Origin: Branchiostoma floridae | Lineage: Eukaryota > Chordata > Leptocardii > Amphioxiformes > Branchiostomatidae | NCBI RefSeq assembly: GCF_000003815.2 | Contig: NC_049986.1 | Location: 14,773,811 to 14,837,810 of the forward strand | Direction of reading: 5' to 3' | Length of the DNA: 64,000 nt | Shown: positions 1,297 to 48,600 of the stretch, piece after piece | Layout of the letters: each line of letters starts with the position of its first letter | How positions within the stretch are numbered: the first letter of the stretch is position 1 | Notes under the pieces: model-generated | Told to the model about the DNA's origin: nothing | The model's database searches: none | The model's input: the letters and a program-made list of their open reading frames with translations, nothing else | Program-made: the position numbers and the translations under genes

Positions 1297-1703
1297 TATG
1301 ATATTGCCTTGCTCAGTCACCGTGGCACTCGTGCACTTGGGATAACAGACGTCCATCATAGTAAGGGGGAATGGGATAAGTATATGTATAACATGAACAA
1401 ATATAGACCATGACTAATAATTTCTCCAGAGTCACAAATTATAAACTGTTGTATCATTGATTAAAGCAAGGACTGTTTGATGAGGTTACAAAGATTTTTA
1501 ACCACCTTGATTAAAGGTGGTTTATATAAGTACCTGTTTCTCAATTTTGCTTTATTTGTAGATGGCAGAGCGGACTGCACACATGGACCTGAACTTCTTG
1601 ACCACAGCATGAACTTGATGAAGTAGTGGTGGAAGAATTCACATGGTATAACCTCCTTGGTAAGTCCAAGCTGTTAACTATGTTGTAAAATTATTGTTTT
1701 GAC

Positions 1704-1740
1704 CAAGGAGGTTAAAAAATCACTTTTTTTAACCTCCTTG
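1704..1740. mobile_element. Ultra-short foldback insertion with 7-bp target duplication
   Basis: Arms CAAGGAGGTT and AACCTCCTTG enclose a 17-base A/T-rich loop. The seven bases on the left (1,697-1,703, TTTTGAC) are repeated exactly on the right (1,741-1,747). See the finding on this family for the other copies. Confidence 0.75.
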
Positions 1741-9974: not shown

Positions 9975-11683
9975 GCGTTTTGTAAATGATGGTGAGGGGA
10001 GAGAACTTGAAAGCAGATGGTCTCCTGTTTGGTAAATGATGATGAAGGTGAACAAAATCAAAAGCAGGTCGTCTGCTATTTTAAATTATAGGGAAGGGGG
10101 GACAAGGGGGGTGTATTCGAAAGCAGGTCGTCTGCTGATGGGCAAGGGGGGCGTATTCAAAAGCACGTCGTCTGCTGATGGGCAAGAGGGGCGTATTCGA
10201 AAGCAGGTCGTCTGCTGAAGGGCAAGGGGGGCGTATTCGAAAGCAGGTCGTCTGCTTATGGGAATGGGGGTGTGTGTTATCAAAAGCACGTCGTCTGCTG
10301 ATGGGCAAGGGGGGCGTTATCAAAAGCAGGTCTTCTGCTGATGGGCAAGGGGGGAGTATTCGAAAGCGGGGCCTCTGCTGATGGGCAAGGGGGGGCGTAT
10401 TCGAAAGCAGGTCGTCTGCTGAAGGGCAAGGGGGGCGTATTCGAAAGCAGGTCGTCTGCTGATGGGCAAGAGGGGCGTATTCGAAAGCAGGTCGTCTGCT
10501 GATGGGCAAGGGGGGGCGTTTTCCAAAGCAGGTCGTCTGCTGATGGAAAGGGGGGCGTTTTCGAAAGCAGGTCGTCTGCTGATGGGCAAGGGGGGCGTAT
10601 TCGAAAGCAGGTCGTCTGCTGATGGGCAAGGAGGGGCGTTTTCCAAAGCAGGTCGTCTGCTGAAGGGCAAGGGGGGCGTATTCGAAAGCAGGTCGTCTGC
10701 GGATGGGCAAGGAGGGGCGTATTCGAAAGCAGGTCGTCTGCTTATGGGAATGGGGGTGTGTGTTATCGAAAGCAGGTCGTCTGCTGATGGGCAAGGAGGG
10801 GCGTTTTCCAAAGCAGGTCGTCTGCTGAAGGGCAAGGGGGCCGTATTCGAAAGCAGGTCGTCTGCGGATGGGCAAGGAGGGGCGTATTCGAAAGCAGGTC
10901 GTCTGATAATAGTGCAAGGGGGGGCGTTTTCCAAAGCAGGTCGTCTGCTGAAGGGCAAGGGGGGCGTATTCGAAAGCAGGTCGTCTGCTGATGGGCAAGA
11001 GGGGCGTATTCGAAAGCAGGTCGTCTGCTGATGGGCAAGGTGGGCGTATTCCAAAGCAGGTCGTCTGCTGAAGGGCAAGGGGGGCGTATTCGAAAGCAGG
11101 TCGTCTGCTGATGGGCAAGGTGGGCGTATTCCAAAGCAGGTCGTCTGCTGATGGGCAAGAGGGGCGTATTCGAAAGCAGGTCGTCTGCTGATGGGCAAGA
11201 GGGGCGTTATCAAAAGCAGGTCGTCTGCTGATGGGCAAGGGGGGCGTATTCGAAAGCAGGTCGTCTGCTGATGGGCAAGGAGGGGCGTTTTCCAAAGCAG
11301 GTCGTCTGCTGAAGGGCAAGGGGGGCGTATTCGAAAGCAGGTCGTCTGCTGATGGGCAAGGGGGGGGGGCGTATTCGAAAGCAGGTCGTCTGCTGAAAAG
11401 CAAGGGGGGCGTATTCGAAAGCAGGTCGTCTGCTGATGGGCAAGAGGGGCGTTTTCCAAAGCAGGTCGTCTGCTGATGGGCAAGGGGGGGCGTTTTCCAA
11501 AGCAGGTCGTCTGCTGATGGGAAAAGGGGGGCGTTTTCGAAAGCAGATCGTCTGCTGATGGGCAAGGGGGGCGTATTCGAAAGCAGATCGTCTGCTTATG
11601 GGAATGGGGGTGTGTGTTATCGAAAGCAGGTCGTCTGCTGATGGGCAAGGGGGCGTTATCAAAAGCAGGTCGTCTGCTTATGG
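9975..11683. repeat. Minisatellite, 40-bp unit, about 40 copies, ends in a gap
   Basis: The unit is 'gatgggcaaggggggcgtat' + 'tcgaaagcaggtcgtctgct'. From about 10,090 the array is nearly homogeneous. Variation lies in the length of the G run and in 'attcgaaag' versus 'tttccaaag'. A variant unit (cttatgggaatgggggtgtg) recurs at about 10,257, 10,740 and 11,594, and a multi-unit block at about 10,620-10,740 is repeated at about 10,783-10,900, showing higher-order duplication. The first 110 bases are degenerate longer units. The array runs into the 280-N gap, so its true length is unknown. Confidence 0.95.
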
Positions 11684-12237: not shown

Positions 12238-12261
12238 CAAGGAGGTTATATAACCTCCTTG
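12238..12261. mobile_element. Ultra-short palindromic insertion with 7-bp target duplication
   Basis: A perfect 24-bp palindrome: CAAGGAGGTT, ATAT, AACCTCCTTG. Seven bases on each side are identical (GTGAAAG at 12,231-12,237 and 12,262-12,268). The same 24-mer occurs at 47,658. Confidence 0.8.
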
Positions 12262-13570: not shown

Positions 13571-13823
13571 ATAGATCTGGGATCCTGGTCGGGCGGCAGG
13601 ACATCCATCTGGTGGTGCGGAACTAGTGCTGTCTGTGCAAGGATATTACCTCGTTCATTACTTGTCCAAACACCAAGGCGCCTGTATGTCTCTTAGACGT
13701 ATCTTATTGGTTTCTTCGTCCGGTACGTCTTGGGTCAGTCTTGATAATAGTATTTTTCATGGTAGATGAATCCCATTCATCCCGTATTTTCCAGCGTCAA
13801 TAAAAGTGAAACAACATTAACAG

Positions 13824-15878
13824 TAACCAAGGAGGTTTCCTTGCGTTAACAAAATGTGGCTGCTAAAAGTTAGTTTTCCATTACCTGTATTTATAGCCCA
13901 TTCAGGTATAAAGCATCATCAAATGTCTTTCATCAATTCAATCATTCGTCTTTTACAATAATGCCCCCACGTCGATCCATTTAATTGAAGGGGCATGCCA
14001 CTCCGGAAGGGAGTGTTATTTTCCAATTGTTAACGTATCAATAAATACATAATCAGTCGACCTTTTGTGGGATTCCACTTGTGATGAGTTATACGCGATG
14101 TGTTTTGTAAAACAATATGACATGAGTTCACTAACACCGTAGGCCTTTCCAATGCATTCTCTATACGTATGTAGACGCTTTCTTTATCGTGCATATATTC
14201 GGAAAACATTGAAGAGCGCTAAGAGCACCAAAAAGGCCAATTGCTCAGTAGATATAAAAGAGAACATAACAGAACAAGACGAGTTTTATTTAGCGCTCCT
14301 GAAATTAGTAACTTTAGTCTGACATTGTCAGGCACACTGTGATATTCATCCATAGACTTAGATTGATTAGCGGGTACTTGGGGGGTTTAGTAAAAGACTG
14401 AATCCCTTTTGATATGCGTGGGGCAAATGGGCACTTTATCGTATAATGTGAAGTAGTATGCATTTATCACTTCTTAACATTAATTAATCGGAAAATAGCA
14501 CTCCATTCTTGCAGAGTTATTGTGACCTTTTTCAACAAGGACATTATTTGTAAACATAAATGCATCTTCGGCTGGTGAGACGATCTGAGATGTAACCAAG
14601 GAGGTTTCCTTGCGTTAACGCAACGTGACCACGAAATGTTAGTCTTCCATTTATATCTGCATTCATAGTCCATTCAGGCATAAAGCCTCATCAAATGCAT
14701 TTCATCAATTCAATAATTCGCTTCTTACAATAATGTCCCCACGTCCCTCCATTTAATTGAAGGGACATTCGACTCCAGAAGGGAGTGTTATTTTCCAATA
14801 GATAACGTATCAATAAATACATAATCAGTCGACCTTTTGTGGGATTCCCCTTGTGACGAGTTACGCGATGTGTTTTGTAAAACAATATGACATGAGTTCA
14901 CTAACACCGTAGGCCTTTCCCATGCGTTCTCCATACGTATAGAGACGCTTTCTTTATCGTACATATTTTCGGAAAACATTGAGGAGCGCTAAGAACACCA
15001 AGAAGGTCAATCACTCAGTAGATATCAAAGAGCAAAGAACAAGACGAGTTTTATTTAGCGCTTCTGAATTAGTATTGTAACCTAACCTAACATTAGTTTG
15101 GCATTGTCAGGCACATTGTGATATTCATCCATAGACTTACTAGTAGATTGATCAGAGGGTACTTGGTGAGTTTAGTAAAAGACTGGATCCCTTTGATGCG
15201 TGTGGGGCAAATGGGTACTTTATCGTATAATGTGAAGTAGTATGTATTTATCACTTCCTAACATTAATTATTAATCGGAAAATAACACTCCCTTCTTCAG
15301 AGTTATTTTGACTCTTTTCAACGAGGACATTATTTGTTAACATCTTCGGCTGGTGAGACGATCTGAGATGTAACCAAGGAGGTCTCCTTGCGTTAACAAA
15401 ACATGACCACTAAATGTTAGTCTTGCATTACGTGTATTTATAGCCCATTCAGGCATAAAGCGCCATTTATAAATTCATCAAGTGCCATTTATCAATTCAA
15501 TAATTCGTTCCTTACAATCATGGCCATCCAAGTTAAGCCACAATGGCAGACAGTGTTATTCCTGACAGCTTTTGATAAACCAACTCTAACCAACCATACA
15601 GCTAGCTACATTTATCCAATTACCAAGAAGCGAGAGGAAGTCGAATGTCCTAGAATAGATTAGACGCATATCTGTATAACGTTATATAGATGTGTATGGT
15701 TGTTTCCATTGTTACATATATAAGATTCTTACCATGTGACCTGTACTTAGCCCAGTGGGACAAAAATATGCAATAAAGGTCTTCATTCATTCATTCATTC
15801 ATCCATCGTTATTGTGACCTTTCTCACCAAGGACATTATTGTTAACATCTTCGGCCGGTGAGACGACCCGAGATGTAG
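13824..15878. repeat. ~780-bp tandem duplication, two full copies and a broken third
   Basis: Copy 1 starts about 13,824, copy 2 about 14,595 and copy 3 about 15,374. All begin 'aaccaaggaggt(t/c)tccttg' + 'cgttaac' and share long stretches ('cccattcaggcataaagc', 'aatcagtcgaccttttgtgg'). Each full copy contains an inner inverted pair 'aagggagtgttattttcc' / 'ggaaaata.cactcc'. Copy 3 keeps only its start (to about 15,530) and its end (from about 15,806, ggtgagacgacccgagatg); the middle is replaced by a LINE tail. Confidence 0.85.
15600..15805 (+). mobile_element. CR1-like LINE 3' tail ending in (ATTC)n
   Basis: Contains 'ccaagaagcgagaggaag', 'cctgtacttagccc' and the end 'caataaaggtcttcattc', which expands to six cattc units. 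It interrupts the third copy of the 780-bp duplication. Confidence 0.65.
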
Positions 15879-28071: not shown

Positions 28072-28086
28072 CAAGGAACCTCCTTG
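28072..28086. mobile_element. Shortest foldback insertion (15 bp), near-perfect 7-bp flanking repeat
   Basis: CAAGGAACCTCCTTG is a loop-deleted form of the CAAGGAGGTT...AACCTCCTTG element. Flanks are TTACTAT (28,065-28,071) and TTACTAC (28,087-28,093), 6 of 7 identical. Confidence 0.6.
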
Positions 28087-28102
28087 TTACTACTTACTTA
28101 GA

Positions 28103-28253
28103 GTTTAGCCGGCCTAGGAATGTGTATGGCCAAGGAGGTTTCCTTTTTCAACCTCCTTGGTGTGGCTAGGTAGCCAATACACACTTCTAGGTCGGCTACA
28201 CTTTTGATAGCTTGATACTATCTTATGCTACCTTAGGATCTGCTTTGAGAGCA
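28103..28253. mobile_element. Diverged family B MITE, interrupted by an ultra-short foldback
   Basis: 'agccggcctaggaatgtgta' is mirrored by 'acacacttctaggtcggct', then 'ctatcttatgctacc' and 'taggatctgctttgagag', as in family B at 29,378-29,553. The small foldback at 28,131-28,159 sits inside it. Confidence 0.55.
28131..28159. mobile_element. Ultra-short foldback insertion
   Basis: Arms CAAGGAGGTT and AACCTCCTTG with a 9-base loop. Flanks are GTATGGC (28,124-28,130) and GTGTGGC (28,160-28,166), 6 of 7 identical. Confidence 0.7.
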
Positions 28254-29020
28254 CTATATGTACTTACATCTAGTTCAAACTACACATAGGGAGTCTGCAA
28301 CAGACGATAAAAGGAAGCCATGTATTTGCTGTGCACAACAAGTGCCTTCACATGACCTGAGGCAGACTTTGCAGGAGTGGAGCGGGTCTGGTTGCACATC
28401 GCCGAGTCCATCTGAACTGATCGTCCGGCAGGACGAAAAGGACAAGAAGAAGTATTTGCTGTAAAATGGTCCTTTGTCTGCTCCGGGTGAATCCAGCTTT
28501 TGTGCAAACACAATGGTTTGGTACTGACTTTTGTTTGTAGGCCTGTATGGGTATGATGGTCAACAGAATTCACATCTGTCGACCTTCTTCTTGTAAAACC
28601 GAAACTTGTCGCGTGTAATCCTCTAGGTCGTCTCAGAGACACAAGAAAAATGTTTCTTTAAAGCATTGAGACAATTTTAGAGCTTATTTATCAAAATTGT
28701 TCAAATTCGTGTTGATCCGAGATATAACCAAGGACATAATGTTCTTGACATAACTTGGAAAGAAAACCTCCAAACTGCGAACTGGTAAATAAACTTTGAT
28801 GATCTTTGATACACACCCCTATTTGCCTTTGTCAAGGACGTCCTTGCCTTTGTAAAGCAATGCCAGGCAAAACTTGAAATCATCATTTCGTTTGTGTATG
28901 TACCTTGGCGTGTGCAAATTACAGTACATAGTTTTTTTAAAAGCACATTATATAGTCTACATAATGTTCCTGGCATGTGTAGACAATCAGAACAAAAACG
29001 GGTTGGCGCGACAACAAAAG
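28254..29020. other. Intergenic, one unrecognised open stretch
   Basis: The plus strand at about 28,258-28,464 reads openly with a cysteine pair (KPCICCAQQ) and a lysine-rich end (DEKDKKKYLL). I do not recognise it and there is no supporting splice context, so it is not called a gene. Confidence 0.3.
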
Positions 29021-30840: not shown

Positions 30841-31211
30841 TAATTGGGGTATACTCAGTGAGTAATGGGATGGCCAAACATGATCTCCAAGCAGATACAG
30901 GGTCCAGCTCAGCTTGTTACATTGTTGTTGATGAAAAAAAATATCGAACCACTGGAAAGATGCAGGTCGGCTTAGAAACATCCTTAGAGGCACTGACTGC
31001 GTGGGTCCAACATCTGCTTGAAGACTACTCTTCATGCTGATGGTATGGAAGGTCATAGCATTTTCTTACTGCCGGGTTTCTATGCCAGCCGGATTTCAAC
31101 AGGTACTTGGAAAGCTAAGTCCTATTAGTTTAAGCCTAGCTCTACATCACTCATAATTTCTAATTGTTTCTTTGCGTTTTTTCGTCCTGTAGTGTCCGAG
31201 ACTCGGCCAAC

Positions 31212-33142
31212 ATGGCAACCACAGCTGTATCTCGTCTGAAAGAACAGGAGGACAGGGAGGGATGTGGAGAGGATCTTCCGCGCACCTACAAATGTAGCAA
31301 GTGTGACAAAGAATTTTGTAAACCGAGTCAGCTGAAGTATCACATGCGTACTCGACACACTGGTGAAAAGCCGAGGTGTGAGGTGTGCAGCAAACACTTC
31401 AGTGGGCCGGGTCCTCTGAAGATCCATATGCTTACTCACACCGGAGAGAAGCCACACAGGTGTGAGGAGTGCAACCGACAGTTCAGTCTGCTGAGTATTT
31501 TAAAGACACATATGAGGACGCACACCGGTGAGAAACCCTATAAATGTGAGGAGTGCAGCAAACGGTTTACTCAGTCATGTGCTCTGAAGAGGCATATGCG
31601 GACTCACACTGGAGAGAAGCCGTACAGATGTGAGGAGTGCAGCCGACAGTTCCGTGACCTGGGTGATCTAAAGAAGCATATGCTGACTCACACCGGAGAG
31701 AAACCCTACAAATGTGAGACATGCAGCAGACAATTCGCTCACCCGACTTCTTTGAAGATGCACCTTAGGACTCACACAGGTGAAAAGCCATATAAGTGTG
31801 AGAAATGCAGCAGACAGTTCAGTCAGCCAGGTGCTCTGAAGATGCACATGCGGACTCACACCGGTGAAAAGCCGTACAGGTGTGACGAGTGCAGCAAACA
31901 GTTTATTCGGCTGGAACGTCTGAAGAATCATATGCGGGCCCACACCGGTGAGAAACCCTACAGATGCCAGGAGTGCAGCAGACAGTTCAGTTTCTCGACT
32001 AATCTGAAGAGTCATATGAAGACTCACACTGGAGAGAAGCCATACAGGTGTGAGGAGTGCAGTCAACACTTCAGTGATAAAGGCACTCTAAAGATCCATA
32101 TGAGGACTCACACCGGTGAGAAACCTTACAGATGCGAGGAGTGCAGCAGACAGTTCAGTCGACTGTTTCGTCTGAAGCAGCATATAAGAACTCACACCGG
32201 TGAGAAGCCGTACGGGTGTGAGGAGTGCAACAAGCGGTTCAGTAGGCTGGATCATCTGAAGACGCATATGAAGACTCATACTGGCGAGAAACGTTATGTA
32301 TGTGAGGAGTGCAGCAAACAGTTTAGTGATCTGTATAGTCTGAAGAGTCATATAAAGACTCACACCGGTGAGAAGCCGTACAGATGTGATGAGTGCAGCA
32401 AACAGTTCAGTCATCAGGGAAATCTGAAGAGTCATATGAGGAGTCACACAGGTGAGAACCTTACACATGTGAGGAGTGCAGCAAACAGTTCAGTCATATA
32501 GGAAATCTGAAGAGTCATATGAAGACTCACACGGGTGAGAAACATCACACCTGTGAGAAGTGCAGCAAACAGTTCAGTCATCTGCACACTCTGAAGACAC
32601 ATATGAAGACTCATACTGGAGAGAAACCTTACAAATGTGAGGAGTGCAGCAGGCGGTTCAGTGAGCTGGGTTCTCTGAAACAACATATGAGGACTCACAC
32701 TGGTGAGAAGCCATACAGATGTCAGGAGTGCAGCAAGCAGTTCAGTCAGCTGGGAAATCTGAAGAGTCATATGAAGACTCACACAGGAGAGAAGCCGTAC
32801 ACCTGTGAGGAGTGCAGCAAACAGTTTAGTGAGCTGAGGTCTCTGAAGAACCATATGAGGACTCATACTGGGGAGAAGCCGTACAAATGTGAGGAATGCA
32901 GCAGGCATTTCAGTGAGCTTGGTTCTCTGAAGATCCATATTAGAACTCACACTGGGGAGAAGCCATACAGATGTGAGGAGTGCAGCAAGCAGTTCAGTCA
33001 TCTGGGAAATCTGAAGAGTCATATGAAGACTCACACAGGAGAAAAACCTTACAGGTGTGAGGAGTGCAGCAGGCAGTTCAGTCATCTGTGTACTCTGAAG
33101 AAACATAGGAAGACTCACACTGGGGGGAAACTTCACACATAA
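31212..33142 (+). CDS. C2H2 zinc-finger protein, about 22 fingers, with one frameshift
   Basis: The coding part is one exon. An acceptor (cctgtag) lies at about 31,192 and the first good ATG is at 31,212 ([12 protein letters not shown]). After a roughly 25-aa leader come 14 fingers of the form C-x2-C-x12-H-x3-H joined by TGEKP linkers (the first is separated by RTRHTGEKP). At about 32,456 the linker reads ggtgagaac-cttacaca where the paralogous linkers have ggtgagaaaccttacaca: one base is missing. The frame then closes at 32,501, while finger 15 and seven more fingers continue in the next frame to the stop at 33,142. Such tandem TGEKP proteins are nuclear DNA-binding factors. No KRAB, SCAN, BTB or ZAD domain is visible. 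The frameshift could be an assembly error, a polymorphism or a decayed gene; the otherwise clean second frame favours a recent event or an error. Confidence 0.93.
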
Positions 33143-34199
33143 AAGGAGTGCAGCAAGCAGTTTAGTGAGTTGGAAGAACAATAACTGTTATTTGTTGGAA
33201 GAACAATAACTGTTATTTGTGAAAGAAAACACAGTAGGAGCTTCCACCAGATAAGTACTCTAAGAGCAAACATCAAAAGAGACAAGTAGGGAGCAGCCAC
33301 AAAAGTGCTTGTGAATGTGTCATTCACTGACACAAATATCATGTTGTAGAAGTTGATGGATGTAGACAATTTTGTACGATTGATGGTGATCTGACTGTAT
33401 TGTCTTTGTCAAGGCTAGAGACAAGCACTACAATTGCTGTTTATCTTAAAATTTAGGAATAGTATTGACTGTCATGGGGTTTTGCCCCATTGACTATTGA
33501 AATAATCATTGAAAATTGTGTGGTTCTTTCATTTATTTTATTGTAATGACGACTAACCTTAACATTGTTCTCCCATTTTTTGTAGTGTCTTGGAAAAAAA
33601 CGTTCGCGAACCCACACTTCTAGATTAGATATTGATAATAATGAGAATGATGATGTACTTGTGTACCTAGGACTCCAAGTGATAGAACAGCATTACAGAG
33701 AAAACAAAATATATATGATATTTGTAGTGTTTTTCAAGTGCACCACAGTACGTGAAGAAAAAGCAAGATCATTGTATGATCGTAGTTTGATATTATAATT
33801 AGAAGAAGTCTGTATGGTAGGTATAGTGCCTCTCTTAGTTTGACGTATTTGAGTGTGGATAAAATAGCTCCATGTAATGGAACTGTGCAAGGCTTAAGGG
33901 AAGGTGACATGTACAACTGTCTGACATAGACTTTGACAATTATCCTTATAAGACCTATGCATATAGTCTAGATAGTAGAGAAGAGTTGCATAACATGAGG
34001 CCTTTAGTTGGTATGTAAAACAACACCCTCTGTCAGGTCAAGCCTCTAACGACCAAAATCCTATTGAGATGTTGTTAGTTTGTAAATATGTCATACTTTT
34101 AACTTTGACTAATCCCTTCCACCATTTTTAGAAATTAGCTGTACTAAACATGTGACATGAATATGTACTGTGTGAATATCAGACATATTTAGAACAATA
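33143..34199 (+). other. Likely 3' UTR of the zinc-finger gene, poly(A) signal at 34,194
   Basis: A/T-rich sequence with no credible exon. AATAAA at 34,194-34,199 (aacaataaaggc) is the first well-placed signal downstream of the stop. Two adjacent copies of 'gaacaataactgttatttgt' follow the stop near 33,177. Confidence 0.45.
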
Positions 34200-46139: not shown

Positions 46140-46817
46140 GCCCTAGGACATAAGACATAGTGCAAAATATTCCAAAAGAAGCTAGAAATATAATCTCCAC
46201 CACTCAAGAAGTGAATGAAATTGAAAAAAGTTGCAGTCATAGCTTTAGTTGTCATTGGATATAGATTTAACTTATGATATATGTGGTTACACGTATTATC
46301 GTACTTGGAGTAGGGTGAAATTTGAATGTCAGTAATTTGTCAAATTGTGAATTATGTGACTTCTGTGTTAACAATATATAGATCCTGCTGCATGATTGTA
46401 ACTTTGTCAAAACATGTTATAAATATTTGTCTCCATGTTAGCCTAGTAACTGAAAACAGTATTCCTCTATGCATAAGAACTAGTACTGTTTTTTGTTTAT
46501 TACATACCATAAGTATAAGTCGTATGTACTTGCTATGTAACACTAGTTTTTGATATTCTGATGGGGACCTTTAATTGCTGCATTTACCTGTACTTGTCAA
46601 ATGGCACTAGCCTCACAGCTAGCAATATTTTGATTTACCCAATTTCAAAAGATTTGATATTGGCACTACAGGAAGCCTACCTATTGATACATAGGTAGGC
46701 TTCATATAGTGGATCTAAAAAAAGTCAAGTTAAGATATAGAACTGACGTTATGAATTACATGTATGTGATGTGAAAGCATTATCATCAGTTCTGTAGCTT
46801 ACACCACAGTAAAATAC
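46140..46817 (+). other. 3' UTR region of V-ATPase G
   Basis: A/T-rich and without exons. 'aggaagcctacctattgata' is mirrored by 'cataggtaggcttcatatag' near 46,670-46,705, a small hairpin. Confidence 0.4.
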
Positions 46818-46843
46818 CAAGGAGGTTGAAAACAACCTCCTTG
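46818..46843. mobile_element. Ultra-short foldback insertion with 7-bp target duplication
   Basis: CAAGGAGGTT, gaaaac, AACCTCCTTG. Flanking heptamers are identical: AAAATAC at 46,811-46,817 and 46,844-46,850. Confidence 0.8.
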
Positions 46844-47387
46844 AAAATACTTACTGCTTCTTGTTTTTACACATCATTATGCAAAACCGTTGTTTGTCAA
46901 AACATTCCTAGACTGAAGTAAAATCTGGAGAGAGTAACATGTCTGTTGATTGTTTGTTTGTTGGATTATAATTGTTTGTTGATTCAATAAACATAATTGT
47001 TGAAAGAGATTCCTTAACGGGAATTGGTATACTTGGAAGTCAGATAAACGTTGAAAGTGGATAAAATCAAGACTTTTATGTGAGACATTTTTGGTCATCA
47101 ATTTTGTTATTGTTAGCTGTTATTGGTAACATTAACTGTCCATTTATATCAATCCTTATTTGGTGGTATTGAATGATTGAAGATCACATGGGAAGAGATA
47201 TAAGGAGAGGGAAACATCAATGGTTATTGATGTCATCTTTGTTTATTCCTGATTCTTCATTGATGTCAGTTTTGTGTATTTTAAGAAGAGCTGCTCAGGG
47301 TGCTAAGGTGGTGTGATGTTTCACACAAGGATTAAAGGACATTCCAAGCCGATGCCACCATCTTCATGTGGACAACAAACTAACTTG

Positions 47388-47775
47388 AGGCCACACCAAT
47401 TTAATTTCTTGGTTCACGGATTCGCTCGCTCCTATTTTTTGGAAAAAAAAATAAAAATAAAAATTACCACTCAGCAAATTTTCACCATTAATGAAACCAT
47501 TCACCAACTTTCTGGTGTAGCAAACATAAAAACTGACACTACTTTTGTAATTTTCAATGAACAGGTGCTGTTACTGTACAGTAATAGTATTTTTGTAATT
47601 TTTTCAAGCTGAAAACTTTTTATTCTTTATGTTTTGGATTAGCCCTTACCTTTACCCCAAGGAGGTTATATAACCTCCTTGCTTTACCCCAACCATTTAC
47701 AATTTTTATTTCGCCCTCTCGCTCCATATTTTTTATGAAAAAATCCGTGAACCAAGAAATTAAATTGGTGTGGCC
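47388..47775. mobile_element. MITE with ends AGGCCACACCAATTTAATTT
   Basis: The left arm aggccacaccaatttaattt, cttggttcacggat is mirrored by atccgtgaaccaag, aaattaaattggtgtggcct. The arms exceed 34 bp with no mismatch seen. No clear target duplication. The 24-bp palindrome at 47,658 lies inside. Confidence 0.85.
47658..47681. mobile_element. Ultra-short palindromic insertion with 8-bp target duplication
   Basis: The same 24-mer as at 12,238 (CAAGGAGGTT, ATAT, AACCTCCTTG). Octamers CTTTACCC at 47,650-47,657 and 47,682-47,689 are identical. It is nested inside the MITE at 47,388-47,775. Confidence 0.85.
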
Positions 47776-48600
47776 TGAGGTGAATAATGAAAAAGTAATA
47801 TCTTGAATAATGAAAAAGTAATATCTGGACTCACAAATGATTAGTATGAAGTCTCTTAATAAATGTGTTAGATGTTTGAAAAGTGTTGATATTCTGACAG
47901 CTGGTAATAGCACACATCCTCACAAGTTAGCATTGCTGCCTTTATCATATCCAATGAGGAAGAAGTCAGACATCCGACACTCAGGTGAACATTTCTGAAT
48001 ATAAAATTGAGTTCTCTAAACTTTCTTTTGTAGTCTGGGTTCATATCAGATTTACATCAGATCACCAATGTTCTCTTTTTGCACAATGTATGTCTAGAAC
48101 AGGGACTTCAGAGAAGTAAGGGATTATATTTTTTGCCTTCATAACGCCCGCAAAGACTCTTGGCTCCATAGGAATGTTTGAGGTGAAAGACTGAATGTTC
48201 TGGATGAAAGCTTCTTGGCTCTAGAGACATGAAAAAGTTTTAATAGAAGGTAGCTGATGACATTTCGTCATGAGCGATGTCCCTTGAGTCAGAAACGCGT
48301 GTCTGGGAGGCACAGATAAGGGTGAGGGAATGACTTGGGGGTCATTATACAAGTAATACTTGGTAACATCCGTCATCTCTGAGGCATGTGACTTGGATTC
48401 ATGCAGACCATTCTAAATCTGTCAGAGGGGTGTGCATTTCCTATTAATATACGCTAAAAGCAGAAAATTAGATCCTTCGGGCTTGATAGTATCGCACAGA
48501 ACTGTGTACAACGTATCTATGTTCAATCGAAAGGTTGTTTTGGAAGATAAAAACTTTATGAAATGATTTTAGTTTGTAATTTTCTTGAACCCGGTTCTGG
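47776..48600. other. Intergenic, nothing recognised
   Basis: A direct repeat of about 24 bases (tgaataatgaaaaagtaata) occurs twice near 47,778-47,825. No exon is seen. Confidence 0.4.

Follow-up and report, generated by a model that had tools for sequence, protein, structure and literature searches.

What are the short foldbacks that recur in this part of the lancelet genome? The window, by which we mean the whole 64,000-nucleotide stretch of Branchiostoma floridae DNA that was analysed, holds a series of inverted arms with almost no interior, and an earlier note had listed six of them, each bordered by a direct repeat, and had taken them for insertions of a mobile family of 15-37 bp. All six are present, with 7-8 bp direct repeats that show 0-1 mismatch, and relaxed scans added 1,467-1,509, 28,833-28,846 and the weaker 28,729-28,747 (Table 1). 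One part of the earlier proposal stands, that these are DNA-transposon insertion sites with target-site duplications (TSDs); the idea of a tiny mobile family is not supported, as the foldbacks look like variable joins of trimmed terminal inverted repeats (TIRs). We believe with high confidence that each foldback is a footprint left when a P-superfamily transposon of the cut-and-paste kind was excised.

Table 1. Features of the window and of the 8,684-bp element; "footprint" denotes a foldback read as a very probable excision footprint, and protein domains are predicted matches.
Feature	Position	Strand	Flanks or score
43-bp probable footprint, two diverged ends	1467..1509	.	TSD ATTAAAG (7/7)
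37-bp footprint	1704..1740	.	TSD TTTTGAC (7/7)
24-bp footprint, same sequence as 47658-47681	12238..12261	.	different TSD, GTGAAAG (7/7)
Relic 16-bp foldback in ~780-bp tandem repeat	13828..13843; copies 14597-14612, 15375-15390	.	flanking repeats mismatched at 2-3 of 7
15-bp asymmetric footprint, 10 nt of one end and 5-6 of the other	28072..28086	.	TSD TTACTAT/TTACTAC (6/7)
29-bp footprint	28131..28159	.	TSD GTATGGC/GTGTGGC (6/7)
Probable 19-bp footprint, imperfect arms	28729..28747	.	TSD ATATAAC/ACATAAC (6/7)
14-bp footprint CAAGGACGTCCTTG, related end type	28833..28846	.	TSD CCTTTGT (7/7)
26-bp footprint	46818..46843	.	TSD AAAATAC (7/7) at 46811-46817 and 46844-46850
Host MITE of the 47658-47681 footprint, ~399 bp with insert, 40-bp inverted ends	47383..47781	.	
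Left target duplication CTTTACCC, 8 bp, of the 47658-47681 footprint	47650..47657	+	
24-bp footprint CAAGGAGGTTATATAACCTCCTTG	47658..47681	.	empty site in 6/6 other MITE copies examined
Right target duplication CTTTACCC of the 47658-47681 footprint	47682..47689	+	
TNP-like_RNaseH_N (PF21787), 8,684-bp element	L059:1501-2670	minus	1.5e-21, over cut-off
TNP-like_GBD (PF21788), 8,684-bp element		minus	3.4e-4, 21.4 bits, below cut-off 24.8, 62-aa open stretch
TNP-like_RNaseH_C (PF21789), 8,684-bp element	L065:3191-3586	minus	3.3e-7, over cut-off
RAG1_imp_bd, 8,684-bp element	L059:3152-3910	minus	7.2e-10

A chance origin had been thought very unlikely, and on our controls we reject it. When all 1,024 5-mers were ranked as possible ends, CAAGG came first with five foldbacks of at most 60 bp that carry an exact 7-bp direct repeat, followed by ACCGA with four (from the tandem array at 13.1 kb) and then by two, and 1,016 of the 1,024 scored 0. 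Two hundred first-order Markov resamplings of the window gave no exact cases and an average of 0.005 cases with at most one mismatch, and with scrambled 10-mer ends, a cruder control (n=60), 58 scored 0 and two scored 4, the real end scoring 5. An unbiased scan of the window for perfect inverted repeats (arms of at least 8, loop of at most 40, flanked by 7 bp or more of exact direct repeat) returned six hits, four belonging to the CAAGG foldback family and two to the array at 13.1 kb. Among the window's CAAGG...CCTTG pairs of up to 60 bp, those starting CAAGGA have TSDs with 0-1 mismatches, apart from two exceptions (the three ~780-bp-repeat copies, with 2-3 mismatches, and a pair from the 12,238 end that reaches a farther CCTTG and overlaps), and none of the four starting CAAGGG has such a TSD.

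The ~780-bp tandem repeat (window 13794-15466) carries a CAAGGAGGT(T/C)TCCTTG foldback in every unit. These unit starts had been suggested as further relics, which agrees with the presence there of a foldback of like kind and less well with its flanking repeats, mismatched at 2-3 of 7 positions; it is probably a footprint amplified by tandem duplication.

The 24-mer at 47,658, like its identical copy, had been described as lying inside or near other elements, and it does sit within a multi-copy MITE, of which there are 40 other near-full copies among those scored genome-wide. An empty site, which the earlier note had proposed to look for, was found in all six of the other MITE copies examined: the site there reads ACCTTTACCCCAACC, with the 8-bp repeat present once and the 24-mer absent, and one of the six carries a substitution. 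The 24-mer at 47,658 is a real insertion.

Beyond the window, we searched the assembly of its own genome (513,431,437 bases in 431 contigs). The pattern CAAGGAGGTT-N0-30-AACCTCCTTG has 1,535 matches and the reversed pattern has none, so that the search proposed from the window alone gave a positive result. The flanks of 50 elements, made up of 45 of the 50 listed from the 1,535 and the window's five, likewise agreed with the predicted 7-8 bp direct repeats: a duplication with at most one mismatch borders 46 of the 50, compared with 31 of 2,450 mispaired flanks. The 46 include L024 and L038, whose flanks are common to both and which are copies of one site. Exact duplications border 32 of the 50 elements, 30 at 7 bp and two at 8 bp, and the symmetrised consensus of 35 exact 7-bp TSDs is GTTTAAC, with T2 and A6 at 0.70. 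Four of the 50 have no TSD at the scored boundaries (L004, one of two in L023, L028 and L045); nested within L004 is a 15-bp footprint whose TSD is exact, and it is at L004:1501-1515 that the reverse complement of the 28072-28086 15-mer recurs, there with the TSD CCTACAC. Across all end types 1,535 is a lower bound, because footprint-like foldbacks of related end types exist. Three such foldbacks, with exact 7-8 bp repeats, were seen at L019:644-653 (CAAGGACTTG), L024:5836-5855 (CAAGGACGATAACGTCCTTG) and L060:56-68 (CAAGGGCTCCTTG). Pattern matches on viral contigs (three loci, two identical) were rejected as family members, their printed flanks being without a 7-bp direct repeat. Among the matches listed in a search of the published literature, judged by title or abstract opening, none describes such footprints in a lancelet, and of 184 papers matched by a literal search for the two 10-mers, the 20 listed look unrelated by title.

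The window is rich in these sites. It holds five exact foldbacks where 0.19 would be expected from the genome mean, three clear and one probable footprint lie inside 800 bp at 28072-28846, and five of the eight gaps that separate its nine sites measure less than 1 kb (P 0.0006 by simulation). Over the first 12.6 Mb of C1 there is little clustering overall, with 5 gaps under 20 kb against 3.7 expected and one 64-kb stretch that has four sites. The local density may reflect local hopping or a hotspot; P elements are known to hop locally, according to the text cited (PMC7776569).

The earlier note had suggested looking for a longer element that shares these ends, and two now stand as candidate parents, one of them with predicted transposase domains. 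A pattern of 25 nt taken from a long-armed foldback matches at 17 places in the genome, and three facing pairs among them have the same spacing of exactly 1,217 bp. The C6 copy of this 1,217-bp element was read; it has a perfect 39-bp TIR, the TSD GTGAAAC on both sides and a longest usual-start ORF of no more than 87 aa, and is non-autonomous. Three places in the genome match the RNase H domain of the P transposase (21 matches in the protein search), and by extending the C11 place outward we delimited an element of 8,684 bp (C11:17071456-17080139) with a perfect 38-bp TIR and the TSD AAGTCAT on both sides. Its TIR is nearly identical to that of the 1,217-bp element, and the 1,217-bp element can be aligned with it over ~151 bp at 79% at the left end of the longer element and ~560 bp at 74% at the right. 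On the minus strand of the 8,684-bp element the predicted order is RAG1_imp_bd, TNP-like_RNaseH_N, a weak TNP-like_GBD and TNP-like_RNaseH_C (Table 1). Judged by its RNase H N and C parts, its 7-bp TSD and its matching TIRs, this element belongs to the P superfamily, and it is presumably autonomous.

Both parents begin with CAAGGAGGTT and have the GAAAG/GAATA end type, not ATAT or AAAG, and no footprint of the window is assignable to that exact parent. Intact-type ends, defined by the exact outer and inner TIR pattern of the GAAAG/GAATA type, occur only 14 times genome-wide, and foldbacks of this end type give 66 forward and 62 reverse matches, symmetric ones being counted on both strands. The stretches read at the C19 and C6 paralogues of the transposase locus contain no exact CAAGGAGGTT end. 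A genome search with PF12017 gave 0 matches, with control genomes equally silent, and a PDB sequence search with the RNase H part gave nothing convincing. Within the window, Pfam on 20 ORFs found no transposase, only host-gene pieces (SURF4, dynamin, peptidase S51, P2RX7_C), and an Rfam scan found 0 matches. The window also contains an array of 84-bp units that resembles C2H2 zinc fingers and whose frame is broken near 32.5 kb (31164-33181), and a minisatellite of 39 copies of 40 bp that is open in several frames (10103-11683).

The structure of the sites is that of excision footprints: stumps from both ends lie inside an intact TSD in 46 of the 50 elements, and for one end type the stumps agree with the TIR of the parent. 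The earlier description of the foldbacks as close to nothing but two terminal repeats was apt, since they look like pairs of trimmed TIR ends. We infer the conversion of a full element into a footprint, as no single site was observed in both states. Identical palindromes do recur at sites with different TSDs, namely the 24-mer at 12,238 and 47,658, a 33-mer at L018 and L030, a 31-mer at L034 and L037 and a 20-mer at L013 and L032, and because the TSDs differ, these are separate events in the copies whose flanks were compared. Among the matches listed, the ATAT end type accounts for 61 elements with 36 distinct sequences, in which the 24-mer occurs 11 times, the 33-mer eight times and the 31-mer four times.

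Such recurrence, together with exact TSDs and constant 10-bp ends, is what would be expected of nano-transposons, units of 15-40 bp with 10-bp TIRs that a larger element's transposase would move in trans. We consider this very improbable. Interiors vary among sites while the arms remain perfect, one end type consists of trimmed joins of a 39-bp TIR, and asymmetric forms such as 28072-28086 are without half of one end; moreover, the Drosophila P element is described as having 31-bp TIRs and internal transposase-binding sites in the text cited (PMC7776569). The foldbacks resemble MITEs in having inverted ends and TSDs and differ from them in being far shorter and without a shared interior, their movement as units being hypothetical. 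A MITE reading was rejected on the missing shared interior and on the 61 distinct sequences found among 78 foldbacks, and the mobile miniature family of the earlier note is not supported, as the interiors are not copies of one element and the retained TIR is mostly no longer than about 21 nt.

For excision footprints, the lengths of the retained ends would carry information on the cut. Using a 39-nt TIR as reference, we measured 78 foldbacks of one end type (61 distinct) among the matches listed, and the larger retained TIR length against this one TIR is 15-22 nt in 77 and 28 nt in one. No base is inserted at 46 of the 78 joins, 12 of which have a 2-nt and two a 1-nt overlap, and 32 have inserts relative to the one reference TIR. 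One 29-mer (21 + 10 nt, 2-nt overlap) makes up 11 of the 78, identical copies that are possibly non-independent. At least 23 nt are kept on one TIR by 1 of the 61 distinct foldbacks against 8.4 under constant decay, a comparison that overstates the sharpness because a GAGGGG variant is present in 9 of the 61 and an end of another type in others. When the reference is a panel of six sister TIRs, three of them read and three inferred from the foldbacks themselves, 56 of the 61 keep at most 22 nt, and the others keep 23, 23, 24, 28 and 33. Beyond the limit, 51-, 54- and 79-mers with at least 25 nt are among the 17 genome-wide hits to 25 nt of this end and a sister end, whose other checked members (C11:9343688 not among them) belong to elements, and one end of a 66-mer at C4:10733098 seems to contain a complete sister TIR. 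These lengths point to a limit near 21 nt that is soft, rests on one end type and allows a minority of longer joins; a first estimate of 17 nt was superseded by about 21 nt after the parental TIR became known. A 42-mer of 2 x 21 nt arises from each of two different end types.

The longer joins bear on a second alternative, in which gap repair after excision is aborted and leaves extreme internal deletions of resident elements, with no direct joining of ends. P-element repair often stops at incomplete synthesis and is then completed by end joining in the experiments described (PMC2895639), and some foldbacks do retain at least 23 nt. This route predicts retained lengths that vary widely past 21 nt and may reach hundreds of bp; within a search range of up to 80 bp, 1,430 of the 1,535 matches are at most 42 bp and 105 are 43-50 bp, and a separate search found 64 at 51-80 bp. 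We therefore give aborted repair very little credence. Among the foldbacks of 51-80 bp listed, a number include a second end and look like overlapping neighbours, and one dispersed 46-mer provides 7 of the 21 sequences among the 43-50 bp matches listed. This 46-bp foldback (L024, L038 and places on C2, C3 and C4) contains the duplicated sequence a second time, together with a piece of TIR, and looks like a templated-insertion footprint carried within another repeat.

An origin from another superfamily that makes 7-8 bp TSDs, such as hAT, with the sites as its footprints or as remnants of its MITEs, is extremely improbable: many hAT ends begin CAnnG and the genome does contain a hAT-like element (L018:6229-8014, 1,786 bp, perfect 12-bp ends CAGTGCTGTCTC, 8-bp TSD TGTAAGGT), but hAT excision leaves altered TSDs and is not known to leave 10-21 nt of TIR, and a hAT origin was rejected on the predominance of 7-bp TSDs and on the P-type transposase domains encoded by the element with these TIRs.

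In the excision scenario that we favour, a staggered cut would fall about 21 nt inside the TIR, as inferred from the retained lengths. The transposase would cut at the element boundary on one strand and about 21 nt into the TIR on the other, leaving each side of the donor break with a single-stranded TIR tail. End joining would then seal the tails, either directly, by annealing at 1-4 nt of microhomology, or with filler partly copied from nearby. With the same tail on both breaks, annealing of a self-complementary word would yield a perfect palindrome: the 24-mer would come from ATAT, the 20-mer from TTAA, and the 33- and 31-mers from a 2-nt overlap (the tail assignment is putative). The element would depart, with TSD, TIR stump, TIR stump and TSD remaining in that order. 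One palindrome could recur because annealing at 1-4 nt of microhomology favours the same product.

A close experimental parallel comes from Drosophila. Excision junctions of P{wa} in spn-A mus308 double mutants, as presented in the sections cited, keep the 8-bp TSD and at most 17 nt of TIR per side, with recurrent (AT) and (TA) microhomology palindromes, asymmetric truncations and filler (PMC2895639), and Drosophila P transposase cuts 17 nt inside the TIR (PMC7776569). The lancelet scars share with these footprints, as there described, the arrangement of TSD, TIR stump, microhomology or filler, TIR stump and TSD, the independent recurrence of the same palindromes, the asymmetric truncations and a limit set by a staggered cut, which for the lancelet is proposed from the retained lengths. 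They differ in being natural, in reaching ~21 nt and in having mostly 7-bp TSDs, whereas the P{wa} footprints were made in the laboratory in repair mutants and reach a maximum of 17 nt. In the account of Galileo cited, TSDs are 7 or 8 bp with the consensus GTANTAC (PMC4168063), and the mostly 7-bp and occasionally 8-bp TSDs of the lancelet, with a palindromic target and T2 and A6, resemble this Galileo/1360 branch (PMC4168063); Galileo is described as having long, internally repetitive TIRs, unlike the 38-39 bp TIRs of the lancelet parents. Zebrafish Pdre2/THAP9 similarly combines a P-type transposase with internally deleted relatives, and differs from the lancelet parent in its 13-bp TIR CATACCTGTCAAC, 8-bp TSD and THAP domain, according to the descriptions cited (PMC10983969, PMC7776569).

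In P, Galileo and THAP9 a THAP DNA-binding domain, which may or may not be obligatory, is N-terminal. The ORF stretches scanned at the lancelet transposase loci gave no THAP match, and RAG1_imp_bd is predicted there instead. The RNase H match recurs in the C19 paralogue, together with RAG1_imp_bd at L048:1-180 (plus strand; 4.5e-4, just below cut-off). Two separate copies, on C11 and C19, thus show a match to the importin-binding part of N-terminal RAG1 upstream of the P-type transposase. Aplysia N-RAG-TP is likewise a mobile element with RAG1 N-terminal-like sequence (PMC8355894), but in that description it is entirely RAG1 N-terminal-like, whereas the lancelet domain stands upstream of a P-type RNase H transposase, the two being compared by description (PMC8355894).

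The lancelet system is unusual in its limit near 21 nt rather than the 17 of Drosophila P, in its many footprints against few intact ends and in its RAG1-type N-terminal domain. As a tentative proposal, one we regard as possible but somewhat doubtful, these traits may together describe a P lineage with a RAG1-type N-terminal fusion, a cut at ~21 nt and a genome-wide archive of footprints that far outnumbers the surviving copies. If so, the archive would give the transposase cut position and the spectrum of germline end joining directly from sequence, and the fusion would suggest P-type transposases, in addition to RAG/Transib, as carriers of the RAG1 N-terminal module. The finding of a RAG1-like N-terminal domain with a P transposase is relevant to the assembly of RAG1.

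Palindromes this short could pass for regulatory hairpins or miniature elements; as read here, they record transposase cutting and the cell's repair of the cut. Cut-and-paste transposons are usually known from the copies that stay, and here the departures seem to exceed the residents. Reading these departures in large numbers would make the position of cleavage, the choice of target and the pathway of repair measurable from a reference genome, an approach that could be tried on any genome with P-type elements.
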